Assembly: GCA_946478645.1 (NCBI GenBank)
Contig: CAMLCW010000021.1
Coordinates: 1-27,091, forward strand
Reading direction: 5' to 3'
Length of the DNA: 27,091 nucleotides
Source of the DNA: an uncultured Variovorax sp.
GTDB taxonomy: Bacteria; Pseudomonadota; Gammaproteobacteria; Burkholderiales; Burkholderiaceae
In this document: positions 2,885 to 26,922 of the stretch, piece after piece
Numbering within the stretch: position 1 is the stretch's first letter
Layout of the letters: every line of letters begins with the position of its first letter
Position numbers and translations under genes: made by a program
The notes under the pieces: model-generated
The model's database searches: none
Told to the model about the DNA's origin: nothing
The model's input: only the letters and a program-made list of their open reading frames with translations

Positions 2885-3892
2885 TCACTGCTTCGCCAAC
2901 CCCAGCCGCTTGATCGTCGCCCCCCACTGCGCATACGTCGCGCGCGTCAACTCGGCCAACTGCTGCGGTGTCGACGACTCGGCCTCGTAGGCGCCCTGGC
3001 GGAAGAAGTCGCGCGTGGCGGGCATGGCGAGCACCTGCGCGAGCGCCGCGTTGAGCCTGGCGACCACGGGCGCGGGCATGCGCGCGGGGCCGTAGAAGCC
3101 GAGCCAGCTCGGCATGTCGACGCCGCTCACGCCTTGCTCGCCCATCGTCGGCACGCCGGGCAGCAGCGGGCTGGGCTGGGGCGCCGCGACGGCGAGCATG
3201 CGGACCTTGCCGGTGGCGGTGTTCTGGATCGCGTTGGGCGCGGCATCGAAGTAGAAGTGGACGCGGCCCGCGAGAAAATCCTTCGCGGCATCGGCGCCGC
3301 CCTTGTAGGGCACGTGCACCACGTCGAGCCCGGCCTGCTGGGCAAAGGCCTCGCCGTAGATGTGCGACGAGGTGCCGGTGCCGAACGAGGCGTACGCGAT
3401 CTTTCCGGGGTTGGCCTTGATGTAGGCGATGAGCTCCTGCACGTTGCGTGCGGGCACGCTCGCATGCACGGTGAGCACCAGCGGCCCGCGCGCGCCGAGC
3501 GAGATGGGCGTGAGGTCCTTGAACGGGTCGTAGCGCACCTGCGCGAGCGTCTGCGGGTTCTGCGCCACCACGGAAGAGGGCGCGTACATCATGGTGTAGC
3601 CGTCGGGCGCGGCGCGGATCACCTCCTCGGTGGCGAGGATGAAGCTCGCGCCGGGCCGGTTCTCGACGATCACGGGCGTCTGCAGCACCTCGGCGAGCTT
3701 GATGGCGACGAAGCGCGCCTGCGCATCGGAAGCGCCGCCGGCCGCGAGGCCGAGCACGATGCGCACGGTGCGTCCCTTGTCGGGAAAGGCGGGCGCATCG
3801 GCCGCGCGAACGGCCATCGACGGCAGCGCGCCGAACGGCAGCAGCGCGAGCAACGCGGCGAGCCGGCGCCTGTTCATGGTGCCGTCCATCAT
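2885..3892 (-). CDS. Bug/TctC-type periplasmic binding protein (1)
   Basis: This 335-residue protein belongs to the Bug (TctC) family of extracytoplasmic binding proteins, which bind carboxylates and related small molecules in the periplasm. A signal peptide is visible: an arginine-rich start (MNRRRLAALLALLPFGALP) ending near VRAADA. Family landmarks follow: VRIVLGLAAGGASD, ENRPGAS, APDGYT, and FGTGTSSHIYG, plus PSWLGFYGPARMP near the C-terminus. Its first ATG overlaps the stop of the upstream paralogue (ATGA at 3892-3889), so the two are probably translationally coupled. A second possible start is the ATG at 3877 (MNRRRL). It closely resembles the neighbour along its whole length, which points to tandem duplication. 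No TctA/TctB membrane genes lie nearby, so it is an orphan receptor as is usual for Bug proteins. Confidence 0.93.
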   Translation of the reverse strand: MMDGTMNRRRLAALLALLPFGALPSMAVRAADAPAFPDKGRTVRIVLGLAAGGASDAQARFVAIKLAEVLQTPVIVENRPGASFILATEEVIRAAPDGYTMMYAPSSVVAQNPQTLAQVRYDPFKDLTPISLGARGPLVLTVHASVPARNVQELIAYIKANPGKIAYASFGTGTSSHIYGEAFAQQAGLDVVHVPYKGGADAAKDFLAGRVHFYFDAAPNAIQNTATGKVRMLAVAAPQPSPLLPGVPTMGEQGVSGVDMPSWLGFYGPARMPAPVVARLNAALAQVLAMPATRDFFRQGAYEAESSTPQQLAELTRATYAQWGATIKRLGLAKQ

Positions 3893-4893
3893 TGCTTGGC
3901 CAGCCCGACCTGCTGCACCATCGCGCCCCAGCGCTCGTAGGTCGAGCGCGTGATGCCGGCGAAATCCTCGGGCGTCGAGCCGCCGGCCTCGTAGCCGCCG
4001 GTGCGGTAGAAGGCCTGCACCTGCGGCATGGCGAGCACCTTGGCGAGTGCGGCGTTGAGCGTGGCGACCACGGCCGGCGGCATGCGCGCCGGTCCGTAAA
4101 AGCCGAGCCAGCTCGGCAGGTCGAGGCCGGCGTAGCCCTGCTCGGTGAAGGTCGGCACCTCGGGCAGCGCGGAAATGCGCGCGTTCGCGGCAACCGCGAG
4201 GATCTTCACCTTGCCGGTGGCCGAGGTGATGACGGCCGAGGAGGCGGAATCGAACATGTACTGCACGCGCCCGCCGATCAGGTCCTTGGCCGCGTCGGAG
4301 CCGCCCTTGTACGGGATGTGCACCGCGTCGATGCCGGTCTTCTGCACGAAGGCCTCGCCGTAGATGTGCGACGAGGTGCCCGCGCCGAAGGAGGCGTAGC
4401 TGACCTGGCCCGGACGGCCCTTCACCCAGGCGACGAGTTCCTTCACGTTCGAGGCCGGCACCGTGGTGCTCACCGACAGCACCAGCGGCCCGCGCCCGCC
4501 CATCGAGATGGCGGTGAAGTCCTTGAACGGGTCGTAGGGCACCTGGGCGAAGGTGTGGGGGTTCTGCGCCATGGTGGACGAGGGCGCGTAGAGCAGCGTG
4601 TGGCCGTCGGGCAGGGCGCGCGCCACCTCGCTCGCGGCGAGCATGGTGCTGGCGCCGGGCCGGTTGTCGACGATCACGCCGGTGCCGAGCACTTCGCCGA
4701 GCTTCTGCGCCACGATGCGCGCCTGCGCGTCGGTGCCGCCGCCGGCCGTGAAGCCGACCACGATGCGGATCGGCTTGCCGCGGGCGGGAAAGCCCTGCGC
4801 GTCCTGCGCGAAGGCGCGCGGCGCCAGCCCCAGCAGGGCCGCAGCGCCCAGCGCCGAGCTGAACGCGCGGCGGGTGCCTGGAAGTTTCTTCAT
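3889..4893 (-). CDS. Bug/TctC-type periplasmic binding protein (2)
   Basis: This 334-residue Bug-family binding protein is the first gene of a leftward pair. It starts at ATG 4893 with GGAGA six bases upstream. The N-terminus MKKLPGTRRAFSSALGAAAL carries a twin arginine and a hydrophobic stretch ending AFAQ, so export to the periplasm is expected, perhaps by Tat. Landmarks are IRIVVGFTAGGGTD, DNRPGAS, FGAGTSSHIYG and PSWLGFYGPARMP, nearly identical in order and spacing to those of the downstream paralogue. It is transcribed divergently from the FAD oxidoreductase across an AT-rich region with a perfect palindrome, so it is probably co-regulated with the catabolic cluster and may capture the substrate or a related compound. 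Confidence 0.93.
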   Translation of the reverse strand: MKKLPGTRRAFSSALGAAALLGLAPRAFAQDAQGFPARGKPIRIVVGFTAGGGTDAQARIVAQKLGEVLGTGVIVDNRPGASTMLAASEVARALPDGHTLLYAPSSTMAQNPHTFAQVPYDPFKDFTAISMGGRGPLVLSVSTTVPASNVKELVAWVKGRPGQVSYASFGAGTSSHIYGEAFVQKTGIDAVHIPYKGGSDAAKDLIGGRVQYMFDSASSAVITSATGKVKILAVAANARISALPEVPTFTEQGYAGLDLPSWLGFYGPARMPPAVVATLNAALAKVLAMPQVQAFYRTGGYEAGGSTPEDFAGITRSTYERWGAMVQQVGLAKQ

Positions 4894-4968
4894 CAATGTC
4901 TCCGTTGGTTTTCGGCGCGTATATTGATCTTCAAAACCATAAAAAGCCATATTTACTAGGGAATACCC

Positions 4969-4984
4969 CAAACGTTAACGTTTG
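4969..4984. promoter_or_regulatory. 16-bp perfect palindrome, candidate operator
   Basis: The sequence CAAACGTTAACGTTTG is its own reverse complement over 16 bases and consists of two abutting AACGTT units. It lies three bases upstream of a TTGACA box, so a bound protein would touch RNA polymerase, consistent with an activator or repressor site. The IclR regulator encoded at 6546 is the nearest candidate ligand-responsive protein. IclR proteins bind palindromes of about this size. LacI-type operators also have central CG palindromes, but no LacI gene is seen. Confidence 0.6.
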
Positions 4985-4987
4985 AAG

Positions 4988-5015
4988 TTGACAAAATGGA
5001 AAGTGAAATCAAAAT
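4988..5015 (+). promoter_or_regulatory. Sigma-70-like promoter for the FAD oxidoreductase
   Basis: A perfect TTGACA (4988-4993) is followed after 16 bases by CAAAAT (5010-5015), which matches four of six consensus -10 positions. It points toward the FAD oxidoreductase start at 5048 and directly follows the 16-bp palindrome. The -10 choice is uncertain in this A-rich stretch. Confidence 0.5.
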
Positions 5016-5047
5016 ACGAATAAATCAGTCCAGCCGAGAACGCATCC

Positions 5048-6502
5048 ATGAAAACTGTCGTCCGCACCGACGAGCGCATCCTGACCTCCGACATCTTCGA
5101 CCGCGACAGCCGCGTCAAGCGCCCTGACCATGGCAGCTGGGCCGAGCCCGGCAAGCAGATTCCGGTCTACCACCGCTGCGGCGTGCTGGTGGTCGGCGGC
5201 GGCCCGTCGGGCACGGCCGCGGCCGCGGCGGCCGCACGGGCCGGCGCGGACGTGGCGCTGCTCGAGCGCTACAACCACCTGGGCGGCCTGTCTACCGGCG
5301 GCCTCGTGATCTGGATCGACCGCATGACCGACTGGGAAGGCCAGCTCGTGATCCGCGGCTTTGCCGAGGAACTGTTCGACCGCCTGCCGGCCGAGGCCAT
5401 CGCCGGCCCGGCGCGCGAGGACTGGGGCTCGCAGGACCCGGCGAAGGCCGCGCACTGGTCGCAGCGCACCGCCGCTTACCACGGCGTGGTCACCTGGTCG
5501 CCCACCATCGACCCCGAGCGGCTGAAGCTGCTGTCGCAGGAGATCGTGCTCGAGCGCCAGGTCAAGCTCATCTATCACTCCTGGGCCGCGATCCCGATCG
5601 TGCAGGACGGCGCCGTGAAGGGCGTGGTGTTCGAAAGCAAGGAAGGGCGCATGGCGATCATGGCCGACGTGGTGGTCGATGCCACCGGCGACGGCGACCT
5701 GTTCGCGCGTGCCGGCGCCGCCTTCGTCAACGACATCGAGGAAGCCGACGTGCACCACTGCATGAACACCTCGTGGCTCTTCGGCGGCGTGGACATGAAC
5801 CGCTGGATCGCGTTCAAGGCCGGCCAGCCCGAGGCGTTCAGTGCCTTCATGGCGCGCGGCCGCGAGCAGCTCGGCCTGTTCGAGCGCCCCTTCGTCTCGT
5901 GGCGCAACGACGTGGCGCTGTTCATGGGGCCGCGCCAGTCGGGCTACTCGGCGCTCGACGTCGACGACCTCACGGCCGTCGAGGTGCGCTCGCACCGCGC
6001 AATGGCCGCGCACCTCGACTACTTCCGTGCCCATGCGCCGGGCTTCGAGGACGCCTACCTGATGCTCAGCGCGCCGCAGATCGGCGTGCGCCATGCGCGG
6101 CGGCTTACCGGCGTGGGCGCGGTGCTGCGCAGCCAGTGGCCCGACGGCGTGGCGCTGGCCGACGAGATCGGCGTGACCCCTGCGGTGTCGCCGAAATTCC
6201 CGAACATCTCCATTCCCTACGGCGCGCTGGTGCCGCAGCAGCTCGACGGCCTGCTGGCCTGCGGCCGGCACATCTCGTGCGACCGCAACTCGCACGGCTT
6301 CATGCGCGAGATACCCCAGTGCTGGATCACCGGCCAGGCCGCGGGCGTGGCTGCCGCGCTGGCCTCGCAGGGCGGCATCGCGCCGCGCGCGGTCGACATC
6401 GGCACGCTGCAGTCGGCGCTGCTCGCGCAGGGCGTGTACCTGCGCGCCGGTGCGGGGCAGGGCGCAGGGGTGCCGGCGGCAGCGGCCGAAGCGGGTGCCT
6501 GA
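5048..6502 (+). CDS. FAD-dependent oxidoreductase
   Basis: This 484-residue flavoprotein of the FAD_oxidored family has a dinucleotide-binding motif VVGGGPSG (48-55) with an acidic residue at the end of the second strand (LLER, E73) and the typical LGGLSTGGLV (78-87). A second FAD motif, VVDATGDGDLFARAGA, lies mid-protein. The C-terminal signature GRHISCD...REIPQCWITGQAAGVAAALA matches the family. About 40 residues precede the Rossmann fold. No signal peptide or membrane segment is seen, so it is cytoplasmic. It is the first gene of the rightward cluster and is followed by an IclR regulator, AcnX and an IlvD-like dehydratase, so it probably oxidises the pathway substrate or an intermediate. 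The substrate is unknown. The ribosome-binding site is weak. Confidence 0.88.
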   Translation: MKTVVRTDERILTSDIFDRDSRVKRPDHGSWAEPGKQIPVYHRCGVLVVGGGPSGTAAAAAAARAGADVALLERYNHLGGLSTGGLVIWIDRMTDWEGQLVIRGFAEELFDRLPAEAIAGPAREDWGSQDPAKAAHWSQRTAAYHGVVTWSPTIDPERLKLLSQEIVLERQVKLIYHSWAAIPIVQDGAVKGVVFESKEGRMAIMADVVVDATGDGDLFARAGAAFVNDIEEADVHHCMNTSWLFGGVDMNRWIAFKAGQPEAFSAFMARGREQLGLFERPFVSWRNDVALFMGPRQSGYSALDVDDLTAVEVRSHRAMAAHLDYFRAHAPGFEDAYLMLSAPQIGVRHARRLTGVGAVLRSQWPDGVALADEIGVTPAVSPKFPNISIPYGALVPQQLDGLLACGRHISCDRNSHGFMREIPQCWITGQAAGVAAALASQGGIAPRAVDIGTLQSALLAQGVYLRAGAGQGAGVPAAAAEAGA

Positions 6503-6545
6503 ACCTCTACATTGCATGGTCCTGGGTCTTGCAACGGGTTCTGCC

Positions 6546-7394
6546 ATGTCCACTGAAAAAAACGAAACCTCCTCACTGCCTGCGTCGCCCGACGCCGCCG
6601 ACGCGCGCGCCGACCGCTCCGACACCGTGAGCGCGCTGGAGCGCGGCATCTCGGTGCTGCGCTGCTTCAGCGAAGAGCGGCCGGTGCTCGGCCATGCCGA
6701 CATCGCGCGCATGACCGGCATTCCGCGCGCCACCGTCAATCGGCTGGTCGCGACGCTCCTCTCGCTCGGCATGCTCAAGAGCGCGCCCGCGGCCGACCGG
6801 CTGATGCTCGGGCCCGGCGTGGTGTCGCTCTCGCGCGTGTTCCTCGGCAGCCTCGACGTGCGTGCCGCCGCGCGGCCCAGCATGCAGGCCATGGCCGAGG
6901 AGGTCGGCGCCTCGGTCTACCTCGCGGTGCGCGACGGCATGGAGATGGTGCTGATCGAAGCCTGCCGGCCGCGCTCGTCGATGCTGTCGGCGCGGCTCGA
7001 CGTGGGCTCGCGCGCGCCGCTGCCCAACTCGGCGCTCGGCCGCGCCTACCTGTCGGCGCTGCCCGAGGCCGCACGCAACCAGCTCGTCGATTCGCTGCGC
7101 CTCCTGCGCGGCCCCGAATGGGACAGCATCGCCGCGCCCATGGCGCGTGCCATCGGCGAGGCGAAGCGGCTCGGCTACTGCCTGTCGCTCGGCGAGTTCC
7201 ACCGCGAGATCAATTCGGTGTCGGTGCCGCTCGTCGGGCCCGACGGCGAAGTGATGGCGCTCAACGGCGGCGGCGCGGCCTTCGTCTTCACCGAGGAGCG
7301 GCTGCGCAACGAACTCGCGCCGCGGTTGCACGACATCGCGCTCAGCATCGCGCGCGACATCGGCGGCCACGTGCCGTCGCCCACCTCGGGCTAG
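6546..7394 (+). CDS. IclR-family transcriptional regulator
   Basis: This 282-residue regulator has an N-terminal winged helix-turn-helix (about residues 28-85). The recognition region is HADIARMTGIPRATVNRLVATL, written here to locate it at 50-71. The IclR effector-binding domain fills the rest, including the conserved-looking LPNSALGRAYLSALP and the C-terminal SVSVPLVGPDGEVMALN. Such proteins bind aromatic or aliphatic acids and repress or activate the adjacent catabolic genes. The gene lies inside the cluster it probably controls, 43 bases after the FAD oxidoreductase and 47 before AcnX. ATG 6546 is chosen. ATG 6516 in the same frame is possible but has no better ribosome-binding site. The palindrome at 4969-4984 is a candidate binding site. 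Confidence 0.92.
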   Translation: MSTEKNETSSLPASPDAADARADRSDTVSALERGISVLRCFSEERPVLGHADIARMTGIPRATVNRLVATLLSLGMLKSAPAADRLMLGPGVVSLSRVFLGSLDVRAAARPSMQAMAEEVGASVYLAVRDGMEMVLIEACRPRSSMLSARLDVGSRAPLPNSALGRAYLSALPEAARNQLVDSLRLLRGPEWDSIAAPMARAIGEAKRLGYCLSLGEFHREINSVSVPLVGPDGEVMALNGGGAAFVFTEERLRNELAPRLHDIALSIARDIGGHVPSPTSG

Positions 7395-7441
7395 CGACAA
7401 CAAGACAACCCCACGACGGAAAAAGAACGGAGACACAGGCC

Positions 7442-8743
7442 ATGCACCTGAGCGATGAAGAAAAAGCCATGTACGACGGCCGCGACGGGCCGGCCGTGCA
7501 GAAGGCGATGGACCTGCTGGTGCGCTACGGTGAGGCGCTCGGTGCCGAAAGGCTGGTCGAGACACGCAACGTCTGCGCATCGATCACTTCCACTACGCCG
7601 TTCCAGCGCGACTTCGCGCTCGCCAAGGGCGGCGGCATGGATGCGGTGTTCTCCGAATTCAGCCTCGACAGCCAGGAGACCGTCGAGATCCCGAAGTTCA
7701 AGGTCTTCACGAGCCACCTGCAGCTGGGCTTCGATCCCGGCCAGCCCGAGCGCATGGGCGTGAGCGAGGAGATCGTGCAGTTCTACGAGCGCAGCGAGCG
7801 CCATGCGGCCGGCCTCGGCGCGCAGATCATGAACACCTGCACGCCCTACCAGGTCGGCAATATCCCGACGCGCGGCGAGCACTGCGCCTGGATGGAATCG
7901 TCGGCCGTGGTGTATTGCAACTCGGTGCTCGGCGCACGCACCAACACCGAAGGGCGCGAGAGCACCGGCGCGGCCATGCTCACCGGCCGTATTCCGTACT
8001 GGGGCTACCACCTCGACGAGAACCGCCACGCCACGCACGTGGTCGAGCTCGACGCGGGCATCGAGGTCGAGTCGGTGCAGGACTGGGGCCTGCTCGGCTA
8101 TTACATCGGCGAGCATGTGCAGGAGCGCGTGCCGGTGGTGCACAGCCGGCGCGGCATCGCGCGGGTGCCGAACCTGCCGCGGCTCAAGCACTTCGGCGCG
8201 GCGGCCTCTTCGTCGGGCGGCGTGGAGATGTACCACATCGTCGGCGTCACGCCCGAGGCGCTGACGCTCGAGCAGGCGCTCGGCGGGCGCAAGCCGCAGG
8301 CGGTGCTGCACTACGGCGAGGCCGAGCGCCGCGCCACCTACGAGAAGATCAACGCCACCGGCCGCGATGCCGACGTGCAGTACGTGATGCTCGGCTGCCC
8401 GCACTACACCATCGAGCAGATCTGGGAGGCCGCGCAGCTGATCGAGGGGCGCAAGGTGCATGACGGCTGCGAGCTCTGGATCTTCACGCCCCGCGCGATC
8501 AAGTCGCTGGCCGACCGCAACGGCTACACGAAGATCATCGAGGACGCGGGCGGCATCCTCATGACCGACAGCTGCTCGGCAATGAGCCGCGCCGTGCCCA
8601 AGGGCACGAAGACCGTCGCGCTCGACTCGGCCAAGCAGGCGCACTACCTGCCGGCGATCCTCGGCGTGCAGGCGTGGTTCGGCAGCACGGCGGAATGCAT
8701 CGATGCGGCGTGCACGGGGCGGTGGAACGGGGGCATGCAATGA
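7442..8743 (+). CDS. Aconitase X catalytic (large) subunit
   Basis: This 433-residue protein is the catalytic domain of aconitase X (AcnX). The known activities of the AcnX family are cis-3-hydroxy-L-proline dehydratase in bacteria and mevalonate-5-phosphate dehydratase in archaea, both using an iron-sulfur cluster. Cysteines in conserved-looking settings are C133 (MNTCTPYQVGN), C319 (MLGCPHYT) and C378 (TDSCSAMS), the likely cluster ligands. C45, C148 and C159 are further candidates. Start ATG 7442 has GGAG nine bases upstream. The swivel domain is encoded separately at 8874, so the enzyme is the split, two-subunit form. Between the two lies a repeat element. With the IlvD-like dehydratase and FAD oxidoreductase alongside, the substrate may be hydroxyproline or another hydroxy acid. 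Confidence 0.9.
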   Translation: MHLSDEEKAMYDGRDGPAVQKAMDLLVRYGEALGAERLVETRNVCASITSTTPFQRDFALAKGGGMDAVFSEFSLDSQETVEIPKFKVFTSHLQLGFDPGQPERMGVSEEIVQFYERSERHAAGLGAQIMNTCTPYQVGNIPTRGEHCAWMESSAVVYCNSVLGARTNTEGRESTGAAMLTGRIPYWGYHLDENRHATHVVELDAGIEVESVQDWGLLGYYIGEHVQERVPVVHSRRGIARVPNLPRLKHFGAAASSSGGVEMYHIVGVTPEALTLEQALGGRKPQAVLHYGEAERRATYEKINATGRDADVQYVMLGCPHYTIEQIWEAAQLIEGRKVHDGCELWIFTPRAIKSLADRNGYTKIIEDAGGILMTDSCSAMSRAVPKGTKTVALDSAKQAHYLPAILGVQAWFGSTAECIDAACTGRWNGGMQ

Positions 8744-8761
8744 GCGCAGCGCGTGGGTTGT

Positions 8762-8870
8762 CTTTCTCCCTCCCCCGCTGGGGGAGGGCAGGGGTGGGGG
8801 CCAGCGGCGCCTCCATTGGGCGCTCTGGCTGCCCCCATCCCAACCTTCCCCCGGTGGGGGAAGGAGCAAG
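8762..8870. repeat. REPIN-like pair of inverted palindromes
   Basis: Two related hairpins face each other. The left one has stem arms 8768-8776 and 8780-8788 (CCCTCCCCC/GGGGGAGGG, loop of three). The right one has arms 8844-8852 and 8856-8864 (CCTTCCCCC/GGGGGAAGG, loop of three). The left flank (ctttctccct..., ending ggggtggggg) matches the reverse complement of the right flank with a few changes, so the whole is an imperfect inverted repeat around a spacer of roughly 30 bases. This is the architecture of REP doublets (REPINs/BIMEs). From memory, similar sequences are scattered between genes in Burkholderiales. It interrupts the AcnX two-subunit unit, and its right end contributes the AAGGAG of the next gene. 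It has no coding capacity of its own. Confidence 0.8.
8780..8800 (+). other. G-quadruplex motif
   Basis: Within the left half of the repeat the coding strand reads five G, A, three G, CA, four G, T, five G. That is four G-runs separated by loops of one or two bases, satisfying the usual G3+N1-7 pattern. In the transcript it competes with the left hairpin for the same bases. Whether it folds in vivo is not known. Confidence 0.5.
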
Positions 8871-8873
8871 ACC

Positions 8874-9320
8874 ATGACGGACCACGAAACCATGTTGATC
8901 ATCCGCGGCCGCAAGGTCGTCGGCGGCGTGGCCGAAGGCGAGGCGCTGGTCACGCGCGACCGCATCTCGGGCTGGGGCGGCATCGATCCGCGCACCGGCA
9001 GCGTCGTCGAGACGCGGCACGAACTGCGCGGCCAGAGCTTCGCGGGCAAGGTGCTGGTGTTTCCCGGCGCCAAGGGTTCGTCGGGCTGGTCGGCCATGTT
9101 CCACATGACGCGGCTCATGAACGTCGCGCCCGCCGCCTTCCTGTTCAATGAGATGACCACCAAGATGGCGCTCGGCGCCGTGGTCACCCATGCGCCTGCG
9201 ATGACCGACTTCGAGCGCGATCCGCTCGAATGCATCGCCACCGGCGACTGGGTGCGCGTGGACGCCGACCGCGGCGTGATCGAGATCACCAAGAAGAACC
9301 CCTCCGGAGACCGCCCATGA
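8874..9320 (+). CDS. Aconitase X swivel (small) subunit
   Basis: This 148-residue protein is the AcnX swivel domain, the partner of the catalytic subunit encoded just upstream. The conserved substrate-binding loop is seen as VFPGAKGSSGWSA (62-74), with S69/S70 in the position of the serine that aconitases use for catalysis. The C-terminal part, with TDFERDPLECIATGDWVRVDADRG, is typical of the family. ATG 8874 is chosen because AAGGAG (8861-8866) stands seven bases upstream. ATG 8892 (MLIIRG) is a possible internal start. The ribosome-binding site belongs to the right arm of the REPIN-like repeat, so folding of that hairpin could limit translation of this subunit. Its stop overlaps the start of the IlvD-like gene (ATGA, 9317-9320). 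Confidence 0.9.
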   Translation: MTDHETMLIIRGRKVVGGVAEGEALVTRDRISGWGGIDPRTGSVVETRHELRGQSFAGKVLVFPGAKGSSGWSAMFHMTRLMNVAPAAFLFNEMTTKMALGAVVTHAPAMTDFERDPLECIATGDWVRVDADRGVIEITKKNPSGDRP

Positions 9321-11002
9321 CCCGCCCCCTGCGCAGCAACTTCCCCCGCGGCTCCTACCTCTGGTCGGTGCGCAATGCGCACTGGCGCGCGCTCGGCATC
9401 CCCGAGGAAGACTGCGAGAAGCCCAAGATCGCCATCGTCAACAGCTCGTCCGAGCTGGCCGCCTGCTTCAGCCACCTCGACCAGGTGGCCGCCGAGATCA
9501 AGGCCGCGATCCGCGCCGCGGGCGGCGTGCCGTTCGAGATCCGCACCGCCGCGCCGAGCGACTTCATCACCGGCGCCGGCGCGCGCGGCGCCTACATGCT
9601 CGGCGCGCGCGACCTCGTCACCAACGACATCGAAGTGGCGGTCGAGGGCGCGCAGCTCGACGGCATGGTCTGCCTCACCTCGTGCGACAAGACCGTGCCG
9701 GGCCAGCTCATGGCGGCGGCGCGGCTCAACATCCCGACCCTGCTCGTGCCCTGCGGCTACCAGCCGAGCGGCGAGTACCGCGGCCGGCACATGGACATCG
9801 AGGAGGTGTTCATCGGCGCGATGCACGCGGTCACGGGCAACTTGCCGGTCGAGGAACTCGTGGGCATGAGCCGCGAGGCGATCCGCGGGCCCGGCGTGTG
9901 CTCGGGCCTGGGCACGGCCAACTCGATGCACATCGTCTGCGAGGCGCTCGGCATGGCACTGCCCGGCAGCGCACCCGTGGCCGCGCTCAGCGACAAGATG
10001 ATGGCCGACGTGCGCGCCGCCGGCGCACGCATCGTGCAGATGGTGTGGGACGACCTGAAGCCGCGCGACATCCTCTCGCCCGGCGCGTTCGCCAATGCCG
10101 TGCGCGCGGTGCTCGCCATCGGCGCTTCGCTCAACACGGCCAAGCACTTGCAGGCCGTGGCGACCGAGGGCGAATGCGGCGTCGACGTGTACGGCCTGTT
10201 CGAAAGCCTCGGCCCCGTCACGCCGGTGCTCGCGGGCGTGCGGCCGATCGGCGAGCACAGCATCGAGACCTTCGAGGCCGCGGGCGGCTGCCGCGCGCTC
10301 ATGAAGCAGCTCGCGCCGCTGCTCGACACCGGCGCGCGCACCGTGACGGGCGCGACCGTGGCCGAGAACCTGCGCGATGCCGCCGTCGCCGATGCCGAGG
10401 TGATCCGTCCGATCGAGCGCCCCGTGGCGCCGCTGCCCGCCATCGTGCTGCTGCGCGGCAATCTTGCGCCCGAGTCGGGCCTGGTCAAGGCCGGCATCGC
10501 CGAGCGCAAGGTGCGCCGCTTCACCGGCCCGGCAGTGTGCTTCTGGACGTCCGATGCGGCCATCGCGGCGCTCAAGAAGGGCGAGATCGTGCCGGGCCAG
10601 GTGGTCGTGATGCGCGGTGCCGGTGCCTGCGGCGGCCCGGCCATGGGCGGCGGTGCCTCGCGCGTGGTGTTCGCGGTCGACGGCGCGGGCCTGGGCGACC
10701 AGGTCGCGATCCTCACCGACGGCCATCTCTCGGGCCTGGTCTGCAAGGGCCTCGTGGTGGCCGAGGTCTCGCCCGAGGCGGCGCTCGGCGGGCCGCTCGG
10801 CCTGGTGCGCGACGGCGACCGGATCACCATCGACCTCGATGCGTGCCGCCTCGACGTCGACCTGAGCGACGCCGAGCTGCAGGCGCGCCGTGCCGACTGG
10901 CAGGCCCCGCCGCCGATGCACGACACCGGCTGGCTGCAGCAGTACCGGCGCAACGTGAGCCCGCTCTCGAAGGGCGCGGTGCTCGTGCGCACCGAGCAGT
11001 AG
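9317..11002 (+). CDS. IlvD/Edd-family dehydratase
   Basis: This 561-residue protein belongs to the dihydroxy-acid/6-phosphogluconate dehydratase family, iron-sulfur enzymes that remove water from dihydroxy acids or sugar acids to give 2-keto acids. The three cluster cysteines expected for the family are C50 (ELAACFSHL), C123 (TSCDKT) and C195 (GPGVCSGLGTANSM). K125 in the CDK motif corresponds to the metal-binding carbamylated lysine. The C-terminal TDGHLSG replaces the usual TDGRFSG. Several core motifs differ from branched-chain IlvD, for example SDFITG where SDG-type motifs are usual, so this is probably a catabolic paralogue. GGAGA lies seven bases before ATG 9317, and the start overlaps the AcnX small-subunit stop, so the two should be co-translated. 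The substrate is unknown. Confidence 0.9.
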   Translation: MTRPLRSNFPRGSYLWSVRNAHWRALGIPEEDCEKPKIAIVNSSSELAACFSHLDQVAAEIKAAIRAAGGVPFEIRTAAPSDFITGAGARGAYMLGARDLVTNDIEVAVEGAQLDGMVCLTSCDKTVPGQLMAAARLNIPTLLVPCGYQPSGEYRGRHMDIEEVFIGAMHAVTGNLPVEELVGMSREAIRGPGVCSGLGTANSMHIVCEALGMALPGSAPVAALSDKMMADVRAAGARIVQMVWDDLKPRDILSPGAFANAVRAVLAIGASLNTAKHLQAVATEGECGVDVYGLFESLGPVTPVLAGVRPIGEHSIETFEAAGGCRALMKQLAPLLDTGARTVTGATVAENLRDAAVADAEVIRPIERPVAPLPAIVLLRGNLAPESGLVKAGIAERKVRRFTGPAVCFWTSDAAIAALKKGEIVPGQVVVMRGAGACGGPAMGGGASRVVFAVDGAGLGDQVAILTDGHLSGLVCKGLVVAEVSPEAALGGPLGLVRDGDRITIDLDACRLDVDLSDAELQARRADWQAPPPMHDTGWLQQYRRNVSPLSKGAVLVRTEQ

Positions 11003-11031
11003 GTTTTTCTCGCACGGCTTTCGCAACCGGC

Positions 11032-11047
11032 GCGGACCCAGGTCCGC
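11032..11047. other. Short perfect hairpin before the porin gene
   Basis: GCGGACC at 11032-11038 pairs with GGTCCGC at 11041-11047 around a two-base centre. It lies 30 bases after the dehydratase stop in the 117-base gap before the porin. No T-run follows, so an intrinsic terminator is unlikely. It could be an mRNA processing or stability element, or chance. The rest of the gap shows only the porin ribosome-binding site. Confidence 0.3.
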
Positions 11048-11119
11048 CCCCGGTGGCGCAGCCCTGCGCGCATCCGAGTAGTTGTTCAACCCAAAGAAGA
11101 AGCAGGAGACAAGGCAACC

Positions 11120-12244
11120 ATGAAAAGACTATGGATGTGTTCGGCGCTGGGGCTGGCGGGCGCTGCGGTGCACGCGCAGTCGAGCGTCACCGTGTTCGGC
11201 GTGATGGACCTCGGCGTGCAGCACACGCGCAGCGGCGGCGGGGGCTCGGTCACCGCGCTGTCGAACGGCGGGCTCTCGACCAGCCGCATCGGCTTTCGCG
11301 GCACCGAAGACCTGGGCGGCGGCCTGCGCGCTGGCTTCTGGCTCGAGGCCAGCCTCAACCCCGACACGGGCGGCGGCCGCGCCAGCAACACCAACAACCA
11401 GGCGAGCGGTGCGGGCACCGCCGGGCCGATCGCGTTCGACCGCATGTCCTTCGTGAGCCTTTCGCACCGGCGCTTCGGCGAAGTGCGGCTCGGCCGCGAC
11501 TTCATTCCCACGCACTACAACAGCATCTACTTCGATCCCTTCAATGCCAACGGCGTGGCGCGCGCGGGCAACCTCACGTTCGCGGGGGCCGGCACCGGGC
11601 CGCTGCCCACGAGCATCACGGGCAGCAACACCGTGAGCTACTGGCTGCCTGCGGGGCTCGGCGGCGTCTACGGCATGGCGATGATCGGCACCGGCGAGAA
11701 CGACTCGAGGGCGCCGAACCGCGACGACGGCAACTTCGCCGGTGCACGCATCGGCTTCGCCTCGGGCGCCTTCGACATCGCCGCCGCCGTGACGCGCACG
11801 CACTTCGACGCCACCGCGGCCATCGGCAATTACACGCACGCCAACATCGGCGCGAGCTGGGATGCGGGCTTCGCGAAGTTCTTCGCGCTCTACAACCGCG
11901 TGACGGTGAAGCTCGCGGGCGGCACCGTGCGCAAGGGCACCACCGAGATCGGCGCGCACATCCCGGCCTTCGAGGTCGGCCGCATCCGCCTGAGCTACGC
12001 CCACCTCGACGACCGCAGCGACGACAGCCTGCGCAACGCCAACGGCATGCCGCGCAGCCGCGACGATGCGCGGCAGTTCGGCATCGGCTACGTGCACAAC
12101 CTCTCCAAGCGCACCGCGCTCTACGGCACCTATGCACGGCTCATGAACAGCGGCCAGGCGCGCTACGTCGTCAGCGGCGGCGTGGCACCGGCGGGCGGGC
12201 AGCGCTCGTCGGGCTGGGAGTTCGGCGTGCGGCACCTGTTCTGA
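11120..12244 (+). CDS. Outer-membrane porin (Gram-negative porin family)
   Basis: This 374-residue protein is a general or substrate-selective porin of the Burkholderiales type. A 19-residue signal peptide, MKRLWMCSALGLAGAAVHA, precedes the classic mature start QSSVTVFGVMDLGVQH. The typical first-barrel pattern follows: LSTSRIGFRGTEDLGGGLRAGF, then FVSLSHRRFGEVRLGRDF. The chain ends GWEFGVRHLF with the terminal phenylalanine needed for barrel insertion. AGGAGA lies upstream of ATG 11120. Lying between the dehydratase and a Bug protein in the same direction, it probably carries the pathway substrate through the outer membrane to the periplasmic binding proteins. Substrate preference cannot be read from sequence. 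Confidence 0.93.
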   Translation: MKRLWMCSALGLAGAAVHAQSSVTVFGVMDLGVQHTRSGGGGSVTALSNGGLSTSRIGFRGTEDLGGGLRAGFWLEASLNPDTGGGRASNTNNQASGAGTAGPIAFDRMSFVSLSHRRFGEVRLGRDFIPTHYNSIYFDPFNANGVARAGNLTFAGAGTGPLPTSITGSNTVSYWLPAGLGGVYGMAMIGTGENDSRAPNRDDGNFAGARIGFASGAFDIAAAVTRTHFDATAAIGNYTHANIGASWDAGFAKFFALYNRVTVKLAGGTVRKGTTEIGAHIPAFEVGRIRLSYAHLDDRSDDSLRNANGMPRSRDDARQFGIGYVHNLSKRTALYGTYARLMNSGQARYVVSGGVAPAGGQRSSGWEFGVRHLF

Positions 12245-12257
12245 AAGGAGCGACCCC

Positions 12258-13223
12258 ATGCAACGCAGACACCTCAATCTCGCCGCGCTCGCCGCGGCCG
12301 TGCTGCCCGCCACAGCGGCATGGAGCGCCGGCGGCGGCTTTCCCGACAAGCCGCTGCGGCTGATCGTCGGCTTCGCGCCTGGCGGCGGCGCCGACGTGCT
12401 CACGCGCATCATTGCGGAAGGGCTCTCGAAGCAGCTCGGCCAGCAGGTGATCGTGGAGAACCGCCCCGGCGCCGACGGCGTGCTCGCGGCGCAGGCCACG
12501 TCGTCAGCGAAACCCGACGGCTACACGCTGCTGATGGGCACCAACACCGCGATGGTCGCCGCGCCCACGCTGCGGCCGACCCGGCCCTACGACCCGTTCA
12601 AGGCCTTCACGCCGATCAGCTCGGCAGGGCAGTTCTCGATGTTCCTGGTGGTGCCGGCCAGCCTGCCCGCGAAGAGCGTGAACGAACTGCTCGCGCTGGT
12701 GGCGGCCAGGCCCGGCGCCTACAACTCGGCATCGAGCAACAGTGCCTCGGAACTTGCGATGCTGCAGCTGCTGGGCGAGCGCAAGGTGGTCAACGCGCGC
12801 TACAAGGGCGACATGCAGGCCATGACCGACCTGCTCGGCGGCCAGATCCACATGATGTTCACCACCGGCACGCTCGCGCCGGGCTTCGTGAAGGAGGGGC
12901 GCATTCGCGCGCTGGTCACGCTGCTGCCGCAGCGCAGCGGCCTGCTGCCCGACGTGCCCACGGGCGCCGAGCTCGGGCTCGGCAAGCTCACCATCACGCC
13001 GTGGGCCGGTTTCTTCGGCCCGCCCGGGCTGCCGCAGGCCATCACCGAGCGGCTGTCGCAGGAGCTGCAGAACACGCTGAAGCGGCCCGAGGTGCATGCG
13101 CAGCTGGTGCAGCAGGGCTTCGAAGGCTATGGCATGGGCCCCGCGAAGTTCACCGAGTTCTTCCGCACGCAGTACGAGGCCTTCGGCGCGACCGTGCGCG
13201 AGCACAACGTGAAGTTCGAGTAG
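12258..13223 (+). CDS. Bug/TctC-type periplasmic binding protein (3)
   Basis: This 321-residue Bug-family binding protein ends the rightward cluster, 13 bases after the porin stop, with AAAGGAG before ATG 12258. The signal peptide is MQRRHLNLAALAAAVLPATA, ending near AWSA. Family landmarks are LRLIVGFAPGGGADVLTR, VENRPGADG, KPDGYTLL and a late GFFGPPGLP. It is clearly more distant from the other two Bug proteins of this window than they are from each other: where they have FGTGTSSHIYG or FGAGTSSHIYG, it has SASSNSASELAM. It may therefore bind a different ligand, for example the substrate versus a breakdown product. It converges with the aldo/keto reductase gene, with 12 bases between stops and no clear terminator. 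Confidence 0.93.
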   Translation: MQRRHLNLAALAAAVLPATAAWSAGGGFPDKPLRLIVGFAPGGGADVLTRIIAEGLSKQLGQQVIVENRPGADGVLAAQATSSAKPDGYTLLMGTNTAMVAAPTLRPTRPYDPFKAFTPISSAGQFSMFLVVPASLPAKSVNELLALVAARPGAYNSASSNSASELAMLQLLGERKVVNARYKGDMQAMTDLLGGQIHMMFTTGTLAPGFVKEGRIRALVTLLPQRSGLLPDVPTGAELGLGKLTITPWAGFFGPPGLPQAITERLSQELQNTLKRPEVHAQLVQQGFEGYGMGPAKFTEFFRTQYEAFGATVREHNVKFE

Positions 13224-19816: not shown

Positions 19817-20422
19817 GCCCGCGATGAAGTCCAGGGCGTCGTCCAGCCGGTCATTGCCCCAGAACATCTCGCCGCCTGCAAAGAAGGTGGGCGCGCCGAA
19901 GATGCCTTTCTCTGCAGCGGTTTCCGTCTGCCGCCGCAGGGCCGCCTTGTTCGCGTCCGACGCGGCTTCCTCGATGATGCGGTGCGCGGGCAGGCCGAGC
20001 GCGGCCAGCACGTCGCGCATGGCCTGCGGCGAATCGATGTCCCGGTCGTCGGCAAAGTTCATCGCCATCGTGCGGCGGCAGAACGCACCGATCCACGGCT
20101 GCGATGCGCCCACCAACGCAATGCGCAGCGGCAGCACCGCGGCTCTCGGAAACTGCGTGGGCTGCGTCCATGGCAGGTCGTACTTTCGGCACTGGCGGAC
20201 CATGTCCTTCCACATGTAGTCGCCCTTTTCCTTCTGCAGCACGAAAGGCGAGGTGGTCCAGCCGAAGGAACGGAAGATCGGCCCGAGCAGGAAGGGCTGC
20301 CAGCGGATGCCGATGCCGCGCCGGGCCGCCTCCTGCTCGATGCGCATCGTGCTGAGATAGCTGTAGTTGCTGCCGAAGTCGAACCAGAAGTCGAGCATCG
20401 GCCGGGGCTGCGGCGCCGTCAC
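19787..20422 (-). CDS. 2-hydroxychromene-2-carboxylate isomerase-like (DsbA fold)
   Basis: This 211-residue protein belongs to the DsbA/GST-kappa fold family that includes glutathione-dependent 2-hydroxychromene-2-carboxylate isomerase from naphthalene catabolism. The N-terminus LDFWFDFGSNYSYLST carries the active-site serine region (S18/S21) where DsbA has its cysteines. The C-terminal GIFGAPTFFAGGEMFWGNDRLDD is the cis-proline and substrate-loop segment. The start is GTG 20422, overlapping the stop of the upstream oxidoreductase (GTGA, 20419-20422), so the two are co-translated. ATG 20398 is a possible alternative. Together they suggest a small detoxification or catabolic pair. The real substrate is unknown, since many homologues are generic GSH-dependent isomerases. 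Confidence 0.9.
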   Translation of the reverse strand: MTAPQPRPMLDFWFDFGSNYSYLSTMRIEQEAARRGIGIRWQPFLLGPIFRSFGWTTSPFVLQKEKGDYMWKDMVRQCRKYDLPWTQPTQFPRAAVLPLRIALVGASQPWIGAFCRRTMAMNFADDRDIDSPQAMRDVLAALGLPAHRIIEEAASDANKAALRRQTETAAEKGIFGAPTFFAGGEMFWGNDRLDDALDFIAGSDHRAPGLA

Positions 20423-21255
20423 TCGAACACCACCAGACAGCGCGCCTCGATGCTCTCGCGCAGCGGCGCATCGGCCGGCGCGTCGGGGTGGTCGAAGGCC
20501 GCATGCGGCGTGAAGCGCGAGACACCGCCGAGCTGCGCGTCGTACTGCTTGAAGACCAGCGCCTCGTGCCGGTCCATGGCCGAGAAATACGACCAGCGGT
20601 GGGCTGGCGAATGCGTGGCCAGGTAGATCTCGCCGGTGCGGCGCGGGTAGCGCACCTCGGCGCTCACCAGGTCGCCGGCCATCACCGAACGGGCGTCACA
20701 GACGGCCAGCGGCGTGTCGAGCACCGGCCCGCGGATCGAGCGCCACACGTTCACGATGCAGTAGCGCCGCACCGACGCCGCCTCGGCGGTATCGCCCAGC
20801 ACCAGCGCGAGCCTGCGCCGGCCCGAGTCTTCGGTGTAGTCGTTGTGGATGCGGCCGTTGGCCGCGGCCCTGCCGTCGGTGCCGCGCCGTCCAAAGCTCA
20901 ATGCGGCGCGGTCGGCCTCGCGGCGGCGCACCAGGTGGTCGAACACATGGGCGCGGCGGCCGCCCGTGACCGCCAGTGCCAGTTCGGCCACCTCGCGGTG
21001 GTAGACGGCCGTGACCTCGGCATCGTCGAGGAAATCGGCCACCGCGGTCGGCGCATCGCGCAGCTCGAAACCTTCGCGTTCGAGGCGCGGCGGCTCGGCG
21101 GCGGTGCGCGCATCCGCGATCGGCGTCGCATGCAGCGCATAGCGGCCGCTTTCCCAAGGCGTGCCGGGCGGCGGCGGGAAGGTGTAGCTGAAAGGGCGCA
21201 GCGCATCCGGTTGCAGGTAGTTGAGGCCGGCGGAAATGGAAGTGATGGGTGTCAT
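20419..21255 (-). CDS. CmcJ/NvfI-family oxidoreductase
   Basis: This 278-residue protein matches the CmcJ/NvfI family of iron/2-oxoglutarate-type oxygenases, known from cephamycin biosynthesis and fungal meroterpenoid pathways but mostly uncharacterised in Proteobacteria. Seen motifs are GRIHNDYTEDSG with candidate metal ligands H137 and D139, VNVWRSIRGPVLDTPLAVCDARS, and THSPAHRWSYFSAMDRHEALVFKQYDA with H215 or H219 as third ligand. Start ATG 21255 has AGGAG upstream. It is translationally coupled to the isomerase-like gene and transcribed away from the SOS operon. It may hydroxylate or desaturate a small molecule, but no substrate can be named. Confidence 0.85.
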   Translation of the reverse strand: MTPITSISAGLNYLQPDALRPFSYTFPPPPGTPWESGRYALHATPIADARTAAEPPRLEREGFELRDAPTAVADFLDDAEVTAVYHREVAELALAVTGGRRAHVFDHLVRRREADRAALSFGRRGTDGRAAANGRIHNDYTEDSGRRRLALVLGDTAEAASVRRYCIVNVWRSIRGPVLDTPLAVCDARSVMAGDLVSAEVRYPRRTGEIYLATHSPAHRWSYFSAMDRHEALVFKQYDAQLGGVSRFTPHAAFDHPDAPADAPLRESIEARCLVVFE

Positions 21256-21377
21256 GGCGGGGCTCCTTGGAAGAGGCATTGGAGCGGAGCCGCGGGCGGC
21301 GCTCAAACGCTTTTTGGTCCGCATTACATGAGCCACAGGAATGTGAACCAGGAGGCGGAAAAGAAGGTTTCCGCCGC

Positions 21378-21407
21378 TTGCAAACCCGGCAAATACTGTA
21401 TGAAAAT
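21378..21407 (+). promoter_or_regulatory. Candidate imuA promoter
   Basis: TTGCAA (21378-21383) and GAAAAT (21402-21407) are separated by 18 bases and match four of six consensus positions each. The -10 lies inside the LexA box, so repressor binding would block polymerase. The implied 5' leader is very short, and no Shine-Dalgarno sequence precedes ATG 21428. Confidence 0.4.
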
Positions 21408-21413
21408 ACAGTT
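21394..21413. promoter_or_regulatory. LexA binding site (SOS box)
   Basis: TACTGTATGAAAATACAGTT has the required CTG at 21396-21398 and CAG at 21409-21411 with ten bases between, plus flanking TA/TT symmetry. It agrees closely with the gamma/betaproteobacterial consensus CTGT-N8-ACAG. It lies 15 bases before the imuA start, so LexA should repress the imuA-imuB-dnaE2 operon until DNA damage. The gene on the other side starts about 140 bases away and is probably not affected. Confidence 0.92.
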
Positions 21414-21427
21414 AGATCGCAACCATC

Positions 21428-22243
21428 ATGGGACTCCCTTCACTCGACCCCTTCTCCGCTGCCGCGGGCCACGGCGTCTGGCATGCCGACGAACTCGGCC
21501 TGGCCGACGCCCAGGTGGCCGCCACCGGCCATGCCGCGCTCGACGCCGAGCTGCCGGGCGGCGGCTGGCCCGTGGGCGCCATGACGGAGCTGTTGCAGGC
21601 CACGCCCGAGGCCCATGTCTGGCAGCTGCTGCTGCCCGCGCTGGCGCAGGCGGTGCAGGCCCGGGGCGGGCCCGTGGTGCTGATCGGCGCGCCCTTCGAG
21701 CCCTGCGGCGCCGCGCTGGCGGCCGGGGGGCTGCCGCTCGAGGCGCTGCTGTGCATCAAGAGCCATGCGCCGCCCGCGCGGCTCTGGGCCTGCGAGCAGG
21801 CGCTGCGCTGCGCCGAGGTGGCCGCGGTGCTGGCCTGGCTGCCGCAGGCCCGCGTCGGCGAACTGCGGCGGCTGCAGCTCGCCGCCGCCCAGCACGAGGT
21901 GCTGCTGTTCGTGTGCCGGCCCGCGTCGGCCGCGCAGGGGGCATCGCCCGCGCGGCTGCGCATCCAGGTCGACACCGACCCGGCCGACAGCGCGCAGATG
22001 GCGCTGCACATCCTCAAGCGGCGCGGCCCGCCGCTGGCGGCGCCGGTGGTGCTGCCCGCGCGCAACGAGCGCATGAGCGCATTGCTCGCCGCCGCACGGC
22101 TGCGCCGCAAGCTGCGCCTGCAGCAGCAGGGCAGCGTGCTGCCCGCCGACCAGGCCGCCGCAGCGTCGTCGGCCACCGTGGTGCGCATCGCCGCGTGGAA
22201 AGGGGGACCGGATGCACTGGATCGCGTTGCGGTGGTCGCCTGA
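21428..22243 (+). CDS. imuA: ImuA, translesion synthesis accessory protein
   Basis: This 271-residue protein is ImuA (formerly SulA2), a RecA-like accessory factor of the mutagenic polymerase system. The N-terminal ELPGGGWPVGAMTELLQATP aligns by eye with the RecA segment that leads into Walker A, but the ATP-binding GxxxxGKT is absent (QATPEAHVWQ instead). Residues 200-240 are basic (NERMSALLAAARLRRKLRLQ) and could contact DNA or ImuB. It starts at ATG 21428, right behind a LexA box, without a visible Shine-Dalgarno sequence. Its end overlaps the imuB start by 32 bases. In studied bacteria ImuA works together with ImuB and DnaE2 in SOS-induced mutagenesis. Confidence 0.9.
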   Translation: MGLPSLDPFSAAAGHGVWHADELGLADAQVAATGHAALDAELPGGGWPVGAMTELLQATPEAHVWQLLLPALAQAVQARGGPVVLIGAPFEPCGAALAAGGLPLEALLCIKSHAPPARLWACEQALRCAEVAAVLAWLPQARVGELRRLQLAAAQHEVLLFVCRPASAAQGASPARLRIQVDTDPADSAQMALHILKRRGPPLAAPVVLPARNERMSALLAAARLRRKLRLQQQGSVLPADQAAAASSATVVRIAAWKGGPDALDRVAVVA

Positions 22244-26500: not shown

Positions 26501-26922
26501 TCGTCGGCGACTACGCCGCGCTCGGCCTCAGCTTGCGCCGCCATCCGCTCGCGCTGCTGCGCCCGCGCCTCGCGCGCATGAAGCTCATGACGGCCGAGCA
26601 GCTGCGGCAGGTGCCCACCGGCCAGACCGTGCGCGCCTGCGGCATCGTCAAGGGCCGCCAGCGGCCCGGCACCGCCAACGGCACCATCTTCGTCACGCTC
26701 GAGGACGAGACCGGCAACGTCAACGTCATCGTCTGGAACCACGTCATCGAGGCCTGGCGCGAGCCGCTGCTCAAGTCGCACCTGCTTGCGGTGCAGGGCA
26801 CCTGGCAGCGCGACGACGACAACCAGGGCAAGGTGCAGCACCTCATCGCCACCGGCTTCAAGGACCTGACCCCGCTGATGGGTCGGCTCGCCGAGAGCAA
26901 CACCAGCCGCGATTTCCATTGA
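23554..26922 (+). CDS. dnaE2: DnaE2, error-prone DNA polymerase III alpha subunit
   Basis: This 1122-residue C-family polymerase is DnaE2, the catalytic partner of ImuB in SOS mutagenesis. The palm aspartates are D434 and D436 (PPDIDVDFEH) and D586 (MLKVDVLALG). CQGRGSSANSVVCYCLGI is the nucleotide-binding region. The N-terminal PHP domain begins DYAELHCLTNFSF (34-46): the metal-binding HxH of DnaE1 has become HCL, as usual in DnaE2, so PHP activity is doubtful. A helix-hairpin-helix (GLNRISGLSKEGAKRLL) and an OB fold (about 1028-1065, with GTIFVTLEDETGNVNVIVW) complete the chain. ATG 23554 overlaps the imuB stop by eight bases. An internal start near residue 31 would still leave the PHP intact. 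Confidence 0.95.
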   Translation: MPDLSAKEERKRQPAKVHALPVPLRKHTVAKLPDYAELHCLTNFSFQRGASTPEEVVERAYQLGYAALAITDECSVAGIVRAYVCRRDMERTLDEYEREHPEEPPIPRNLDFRLLFGSEFRFERFKLVVIANDTEGWGNLCEFITAARNTELPKGEYRVSWEDSDVASLQNCQVLFVPHREPGGAVDVATLHEDLLAARALYAGNLWLAVEMLNELDDDLWFVTLMQASEQTGVPLVAAGDVHMHARSRKPLHDVLTAVREGKTVAECGFALQSNAERHLRQRVRLAELYLPEMLANTLVVAERCSFDPSVIRENYKYPLEMLGSNETPTQTLARKTWSGAQERYPGGIPDAVRAQLQKELDLIRELEYEMFFLTVENVVRFARSQKILCQGRGSSANSVVCYCLGITAISPEKSHLLFERFLSRHRNEPPDIDVDFEHQRREEVIQYIYEKYGRERAAIAAVVICYRSRSALRDVGKALGVDEQLVDEFAKDHYWFDDAVLGEQLNAACVRAGVKEDEFKLVQWIEMTQRLKGFPRHLSQHVGGFVLTHTKLTRLVPVEKASMKDRSVIQWEKDDLEALGMLKVDVLALGMLSAIRRGLDHMNRWRGSMVQMHDIPHDDQKVFDMICDADTVGVFQIESRAQMSMLPRLKPRCYEDLVIEVAIVRPGPIQGGMVHPYLKQRERMRKGLPILYEKDELKPALERTLGIPIFQEQVMQIAMIAAKFSADEADQLRRAMAAWKRKGGLDKFHAKLVDGMVDNEYPREFAEAIFKQILGFGDYGFPESHAASFALLVTVSSWLKCHEPACFLAALLDSQPMGFYSPSQLVQDARRHGVEVRPVDVACSEIDTTLEARAPDAPRMPPGTDARYAERLGNPGQPAVRLGLNRISGLSKEGAKRLLDARAQAPFTSTEDLALRAELDARDMAALAAADALMSLSGHRRQQVWDATATRDTGSRGATLLRGVPVNEEALQLPAAPEGEEIVGDYAALGLSLRRHPLALLRPRLARMKLMTAEQLRQVPTGQTVRACGIVKGRQRPGTANGTIFVTLEDETGNVNVIVWNHVIEAWREPLLKSHLLAVQGTWQRDDDNQGKVQHLIATGFKDLTPLMGRLAESNTSRDFH

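Follow-up and report, generated by a model that had tools for sequence, protein, structure and literature searches.

What does an AcnX (aconitase X) protein do when it keeps the catalytic residues of its family and carries the substrate-recognition residues of neither enzyme kind characterised so far? The question is raised by a gene cluster in a 27,091-nucleotide stretch of DNA from an uncultured Variovorax sp. (contig CAMLCW010000021.1, positions 1 to 27,091; G+C 69.9%; the whole stretch is called the window here), in which the genes of a split AcnX lead into that of an IlvD/Edd-like dehydratase. A preliminary description of this DNA had grouped a flavin adenine dinucleotide (FAD) oxidoreductase, an IclR regulator, the split AcnX, the IlvD/Edd-type dehydratase, a porin and Bug receptors into one cluster. 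Profile searches of the window's proteins bear this out: all the genes named are present with strong family matches, and the grouping recurs in relatives. There is good support for their forming a catabolic operon, so far uncharacterised, whose AcnX has no assigned function. We consider it probable that the operon serves the regulated uptake and catabolism of a hydroxylated carboxylic acid other than hydroxyproline or mevalonate phosphate. The question matters because bacterial AcnX types IIc-IIf had no stated function as of 2023: the relevant passage of PMC10040528 gives their functions as unknown, and the sections of PMC8184944 and PMC10040528 that treat bacterial AcnX outside types I and IIa state none.

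Both AcnX chains, the large subunit (7442..8743, plus strand) and the small or swivel subunit (8874..9320, plus strand), score above the gathering thresholds of their families (PF04412, 398.6 versus 31.5 bits; PF01989, 87 versus 27 bits). Searches against solved structures give TkAcnX as a match for both chains (192.5 bits for the large subunit, 102.4 bits for the small one) and AtAcnX (7CNP) for the large subunit at 150.1 bits. We aligned 33 members of the window's clade (the window and 32 chosen loci) with AcnX from 18 further loci and with the two proteins of solved structure, taking the roles of active-site residues from the structural sections of PMC8184944. Cys133, Cys319 and Cys378 of the large subunit, read against 7CNR and 7CNP, fall on the TkAcnX cysteine positions (Cys110, Cys283 and Cys342) in 33/33 clade rows, and all 33 rows also keep Glu152, Ser153, Lys398 and Tyr402 of the large subunit and Ser69 and Trp34 of the small one. 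Ser69, in the alignment to 7CNR_B, occupies the position of the proposed general base. These residues predict a 4Fe-4S arrangement; the cluster type of other AcnX subfamilies is described as unclear in the pertinent part of PMC10040528.

Key residues for the recognition of either known substrate are missing. According to the structural passages of PMC8184944, the Asp of the HIDG loop (Asp203) binds the ring nitrogen in hydroxyproline enzymes, and Trp35 of AtAcnX packs on the proline ring. The loop occurs in 0/33 clade rows, versus 14 of the 16 comparison loci L119-L134 (L124 lacks it, and L134 has no coverage there). The AtAcnX Thr72 equivalent is Gly or Ala across the clade, and in the alignment the window AcnX does not keep the Cys510 equivalent and has Cys instead of Ser449. 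With AtAcnX, a cis-3-hydroxyproline dehydratase, it shares the family, the catalytic Ser, Glu, Lys and Tyr, two cluster Cys and the small-domain Trp, but differs in these positions, in its neighbourhood and in its clade. With the type IIb phosphomevalonate dehydratases (TkAcnX, 7CNR; ApPMDh) it shares two subunits, the three-Cys pattern and the Glu, Ser, Lys and Tyr residues. However, the TkAcnX Asn79 position holds Asn in none of the 33 clade rows (Leu 28, Thr 3, Val 2), the phosphate loop (Gly48-Ser50, Asn53) is not recognisable in an alignment that is gapped at that place, and the genes lie in a bacterial operon with uptake genes. As judged by its aligned residues, the window AcnX fits neither characterised kind, with the catalytic residues kept and the HIDG Asp and the Asn79 equivalent both missing. 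Bacterial types IIc-IIf likewise lack the landmark residues of either function as outlined in PMC8184944; the comparison is with that outline only, and no subtype is assigned. Arg56 of the large subunit was rejected as a binder of a second carboxylate: the aligned Arg is also found in TkAcnX and is absent from some family rows.

The preliminary description had proposed a tree of characterised AcnX types. In that tree, window-type AcnX forms a clade of 33 rows (support 99/99) outside the AtAcnX clade of 16 rows (100/99). The position of TkAcnX is unsure (75/12), as are those of L083, L084 and L124, because of long branches; the tree program itself warned that long branches meet, including L084 with the window clade. 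In L083 (13998-16053), a Cupriavidus necator AcnX at 39%, one downstream gene is RraA-like by Pfam and two look alike by eye, a further context in which AcnX is found. The gene neighbourhoods agree with tree and residues. A scan for relatives gave 405 encoding stretches, of which the best 80 were kept as window-type loci, and counts out of 80 refer to these. Proline racemase is found in 11/16 other-type AcnX loci versus 0/80 window-type loci, 57 of which have about 10 kb on both sides. Members of the Ldh_2, DHDPS, DAO and aldehyde dehydrogenase families surround 4 to 7 of the 16 other-type loci. Eighteen gene families recur in at least three of those loci, and at 35% identity and 60% coverage the 80 window-type loci lack a match to 16 of them; the remaining two, an AcnX-holding family and an ABC ATPase, matched one window-type locus each, at 35-37%.

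The IlvD-like dehydratase is bound to this AcnX by a conserved linkage. Every one of the 80 loci has the small subunit (at least 60% identity), 74 the flavoprotein (at least 60%), 66 the IclR gene (at least 50%) and 66 the IlvD gene (at least 60%), and the five-gene order flavoprotein, IclR, AcnX large, AcnX small, IlvD is present in 50. Elsewhere the IlvD gene precedes the flavoprotein (7 loci), lies between IclR and flavoprotein (4) or between flavoprotein and IclR (1), is on the opposite strand (1), or follows the small subunit in loci that lack one or both upstream genes (3). Among the 14 loci with no IlvD gene, a contig edge lies within 3.5 kb of AcnX in 7 and an IlvD fragment is present in L058; in the genomes of six of them, a check located a 76% copy away from the locus for L047 and a 59% copy with an 83% fragment for L037. 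In the window the small-subunit and IlvD genes overlap by four bases (ATGA, 9317-9320), which suggests coupled translation. Outside Burkholderiales, the alphaproteobacterium Paroceanicella has the order IlvD, flavoprotein, AcnX large, AcnX small, with tripartite ATP-independent periplasmic (TRAP) transporter genes nearby, and no IlvD match was found in the 16 other-type AcnX loci (tblastn, 1e-15). In 299 Pseudomonadota genomes, window-type AcnX (at least 55%) occurs in 5, window-type IlvD (at least 52%, E 1e-120) in 6 and both in 4; the hypergeometric p is 2.3e-7, and 9.1e-6 when the centre genome G001 is excluded, both figures being uncorrected for kinship. In 250 Burkholderiales genomes, the two scans being taken as the same genome draw, both genes fall in the same two, G001 and G010. 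The link is conserved through several gene orders and both genome samples, and in the 299 genomes the two genes meet much more often than chance would give; AcnX and IlvD likely serve a single pathway, and none combining them turned up in the open-licence PMC literature searched. Three loci (L044, L058, L075) are labelled Pantoea, Akkermansia and Acidobacteria; their clusters are Burkholderiales-like, so these assemblies are probably mislabelled or mixed.

The dehydratase itself (9317..11002, plus strand; PF00920 309.8 bits, PF24877 176.6 bits) has a feature that the preliminary description had missed: as its alignment indicates, it belongs to an IlvD subfamily without the Mg-coordinating Glu and a conserved Arg. 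In the sections of PMC11316719 and PMC5770437 on the L-arabinonate dehydratase RlArDHT and the D-xylonate dehydratase CcXyDHT, Glu453 and Glu463, respectively, coordinate Mg2+, and a passage of PMC5770437 quotes the second IlvD/Edd motif as T-D-[GA]-R-x-S. Our set comprised 79 rows (the window and 78 translated stretches of at least 54% identity), from which L085, L086 and L089 were removed as duplicate reads; of the 76 left, 71 extend over the C-terminal motifs. In all 71, the Glu position holds Gly (69), Ala (1) or Ser (1), and the motif-2 Arg is His (67) or Gln (4). The base Ser, three Cys and the Asp-Lys pair of the Cys-Asp-Lys motif are kept in every covering row, and the aligned window-type rows carry one extra residue after Ser-Gly. 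The motif Glu, Arg and Ser are all present in 19/19 paralogs (18 of 20 chosen IlvD regions, the other two being window-type, plus one from L062; several are mutually orthologous). By a distance script, 18 of these paralogs have the Glu 26-27 positions ahead of the Ser, a spacing like that of CcXyDHT (27); in the nineteenth the script picked out another Glu. Aligned through these paralogs, the window protein shares the 2Fe-2S Cys and Ser base positions of RlArDHT and CcXyDHT (roles as given in parts of PMC5770437 and PMC11316719) but is without equivalents of Glu453/Glu463 and Arg488.

The same replacements set it apart from dihydroxy-acid dehydratase (DHAD), with which it shares the family, the three Cys, the Asp-Lys pair and the Ser; its score of 450 bits lies below the DHAD cut-off of 618.15 (TIGR00110). 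A biosynthetic role was rejected because the relative G001 has a separate IlvD that passes that cut-off, at 751.7 bits. The sources mostly name its relatives dihydroxy-acid dehydratase (best 120 listed), and on these residues the window protein is probably not one despite the database name. This suggests that the relatives so annotated in many records have an altered active site and a wrong name, and makes the variant a natural test of the role of the Mg ligand in the enzyme family. The variant also occurs in L162 and L164, where a 61-62% relative of the flavoprotein is nearby and there is no AcnX in the stretch, and in L163, whose stretch has neither.

The third enzyme, the PF12831 FAD-dependent oxidoreductase (FAD_oxidored; 5048..6502, plus strand; 255 bits), seemed from the 80 loci to be part of the pathway core, and the 250-genome sample weakened that idea. 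Nine of the 250 genomes have the gene; in eight of them it is a relative at 66-81% identity, and neither dehydratase was found there at the thresholds used (E 1e-120 and 1e-140). The flavoprotein is therefore a shared module and a weaker link than the dehydratases, and presence of its gene is not specific evidence for the "FAD oxidase" step of the preliminary description. Its PDB sequence matches, among those listed, cover mainly the FAD-binding motif, and the predicted fold does not decide between reductases, electron-transfer flavoproteins and halogenases. That step gains no support from the analysis, nor do the polyhydroxylated substrate and the order of reactions suggested along with it. 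The divergent flavoprotein kinds tested beside window-type AcnX were all PF12831. Seven of the eight loci without dehydratases were fetched. A relative of the flavoprotein adjoins a Meth_synt_2 (MetE-like) gene in L171 and L172 and lies two genes away from one in L173, which is a different, uncharacterised association; protocatechuate-type dioxygenase genes stand beside it in L172 by Pfam and in L171 by sequence likeness.

Genes for carboxylate-type uptake accompany the cluster, and their type varies among Bug receptors with a porin, the major facilitator superfamily (MFS) and, in Paroceanicella, TRAP. The window has a Gram-negative porin (Porin_4; 11120..12244, plus strand; PF13609 183.8 bits) and three members of the Bug/TTT receptor family, all matching PF03401 at 189-243 bits. 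Two of these Bug/TctC solute receptors diverge on the minus strand (2885..3892, 242.6 bits; 3889..4893, 229.3 bits), as the preliminary description had said; its plural for the plus-strand unit has to be reduced to a single gene (12258..13223, 189.2 bits). For that third receptor Bug27 is the best PDB match, and a terephthalate-binding protein is also among the matches. The MFS genes of L081, L115 and L162 best fit an aromatic acid/H+ symport model (337.6, 328.6 and 240.5 bits, below the cut-off of 418.55). TfdA-like dioxygenases with at least 65% identity to the L057 query are found in 11/80 loci (the query itself counted), with a twelfth at 38% and one at 62% in a B. cenocepacia plasmid locus; the best PDB match of the L057 protein is 2,4-dichlorophenoxyacetate (2,4-D) dioxygenase. 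A GMC oxidoreductase cluster occurs in six other loci (five at stricter coverage), none of which overlaps the TfdA-like loci. There are UGSC-family genes in 4 loci, an Amdase-type gene in 2 and a VanA-type Rieske pair in 3. The transport genes point to a carboxylic acid and do not choose between aromatic and aliphatic, nor do the accessory genes, transporters and folds examined decide the substrate. UGSC-family genes were seen near AcnX in L037, L053, L070, L080 and L084 (PF24696 in the copies tested); in L084, from Sporomusa, the genes nearby include those of a distantly related AcnX and of a protein related to the PF12831 flavoproteins.

From the genes, their residues, the clade and the conserved linkage we infer active clusters, types of reaction and a shared pathway as follows. 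The porin and Bug receptors would import the acid, which the IclR protein probably senses. The AcnX heterodimer would dehydrate a 3-hydroxy acid in the way established for AcnX, with the small-subunit Ser69 acting as base, Lys398 and Tyr402 of the large subunit holding the carboxylate, and Cys133, Cys319 and Cys378 carrying an iron-sulfur cluster, probably 4Fe-4S, as Lewis acid. On the same route the IlvD-like enzyme may convert a 2,3-dihydroxy acid to a 2-oxo acid with a 2Fe-2S cluster, Ser472 and a rebuilt metal site, and the flavoprotein could supply an accessory redox step. A further reading, which we hold somewhat less likely than not, is that AcnX has a third function here and that the metal site of this IlvD/Edd subfamily is rebuilt in such a way that the substrate, perhaps by means of an additional carboxylate, takes the place of the lost Glu; this would amount to an undescribed acid-degradation route with two Fe-S dehydratases across Burkholderiales and in an alphaproteobacterium. 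With partner genes that are conserved, hosts that can be cultured (labelled Variovorax, Hydrogenophaga and Pseudacidovorax) and residues that are named, the question is directly testable.

Several observations count against an operon for the degradation of a hydroxylated acid by these enzymes together. The genomes of L036, L052, L062 and L080 have window-type AcnX and no IlvD above 39% identity, although three of the four are labelled metagenome-assembled, and G277 has AcnX and no window-type IlvD; conversely, G143 and G167 have window-type IlvD and no AcnX in the genome. The eight Burkholderiales genomes with the flavoprotein and, at the thresholds used, neither dehydratase belong here, as does G010, which has both dehydratases and a different PF12831 flavoprotein. 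Profile searches recognised no aldolase or dehydrogenase in the unit that would complete the route, and the loss of the metal ligand means that the IlvD reaction is perhaps not the standard one.

These points bear on the alternatives to differing degrees. That AcnX is a cis-3-hydroxyproline dehydratase is scarcely credible. The two share a Pfam family, Trp34 of the small subunit matches AtAcnX Trp35, whose role is taken from the cited part of PMC8184944, and the best NCBIfam match is the model for that enzyme (NF051439), yet at 235.6 bits against a cut-off of 700; the missing HIDG loop, the Gly or Ala in place of Thr72, the separate clade and the absence of proline racemase from all 80 loci led us to reject a hydroxyproline pathway on residues, tree and neighbourhood control alike. 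It is very unlikely that AcnX acts on a mevalonate-like 3-hydroxy-3-methyl acid in the manner of archaeal type IIb: separate subunits and the three-Cys pattern recall TkAcnX, but Leu, Thr or Val fills the Asn79 position in 33/33 rows, the phosphate loop is not recognisable in the gapped alignment, the tree place of TkAcnX is unsure, and no kinase or decarboxylase partner was recognised within the unit.

Less easily dismissed, though still improbable, is that AcnX and IlvD work in two separate pathways and are co-located only through the import of similar acids. The genomes with one dehydratase and not the other fit such an arrangement, as do a second IlvD copy in G139 with no AcnX nearby and the distance of about 13 kb between the two genes in G203; against it stand the persistence of the link through several gene orders, the ATGA overlap in the window, and the joint presence of both genes in four of the 299 genomes, where AcnX has 5 carriers and IlvD 6, and in the same two of the 250. 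There is perhaps one chance in four that the IlvD-like protein no longer dehydrates 2,3-dihydroxy acids in the standard Mg2+-assisted way and carries out a related elimination or other reaction. The replacement of Glu and Arg in 71/71 covering rows, the extra residue after Ser-Gly and the score of 450 against the DHAD cut-off of 618 argue for this, but the cluster Cys, Asp-Lys pair and base Ser kept in every covering row argue for ordinary chemistry. We give about the same modest weight to an aromatic or aryl-substituted hydroxy acid, such as an aryl-hydroxypropanoate, as the substrate in place of an aliphatic polyhydroxy acid. This would agree with the symport model for 3/3 tested MFS genes, the TfdA-like dioxygenases, the protocatechuate-type dioxygenase genes beside flavoprotein relatives and an IclR protein nearest to PcaR/PcaU/PobR, both model matches being below cut-off; of these features, however, only the IclR gene is inside the window, and in Paroceanicella the TRAP genes near the set are of the C4-dicarboxylate type. 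A single operon for a hydroxylated carboxylic acid is the reading that we favour.

The regulator (IclR family, 6546..7394, plus strand; PF01614, PF09339) has PcaR/PcaU/PobR as its nearest NCBIfam model (TIGR02431, 129.6 bits versus a cut-off of 284.75). The 154-bp divergent promoter region (4894..5047, no strand assigned) carries AGGGAATACCC at 4958-4968, which is common to many relatives and is a candidate regulator or promoter site. Of 50 regions that precede a flavoprotein gene with a divergent neighbour, the window's included, 32 contain its consensus GGGAAWAYCC, versus one of 2500 mononucleotide-shuffled regions. The perfect palindrome CAAACGTTAACGTTTG in the same promoter was set aside, as its core is found in the window only among the 50 regions. 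Between the two AcnX genes lies a GC-rich hairpin element (8744..8873, no strand; minimum free energy -99.7 kcal/mol, z -7.14). An exact search for its core motif found it in one of 174 fetched loci, L002, at the same place, so the hairpin looks like a strain-specific inserted repeat that probably has no role in the pathway.

The closest relatives of the cluster, by sequence identity, are in Variovorax: among the 80 best loci, records with a Variovorax name have a large subunit at 91-96% identity to that of the window, and a 74% copy exists in one uncultured Variovorax assembly. Upstream of the divergent Bug genes (1033-2878) are genes for a LigB-type extradiol dioxygenase and an alpha/beta hydrolase, which recur around the cluster in many Variovorax loci. 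Farther away, at 20419-26922, two open reading frames without a Pfam match precede a DnaE-type polymerase gene, an arrangement that resembles an imuA-imuB-dnaE2 mutagenesis cassette.

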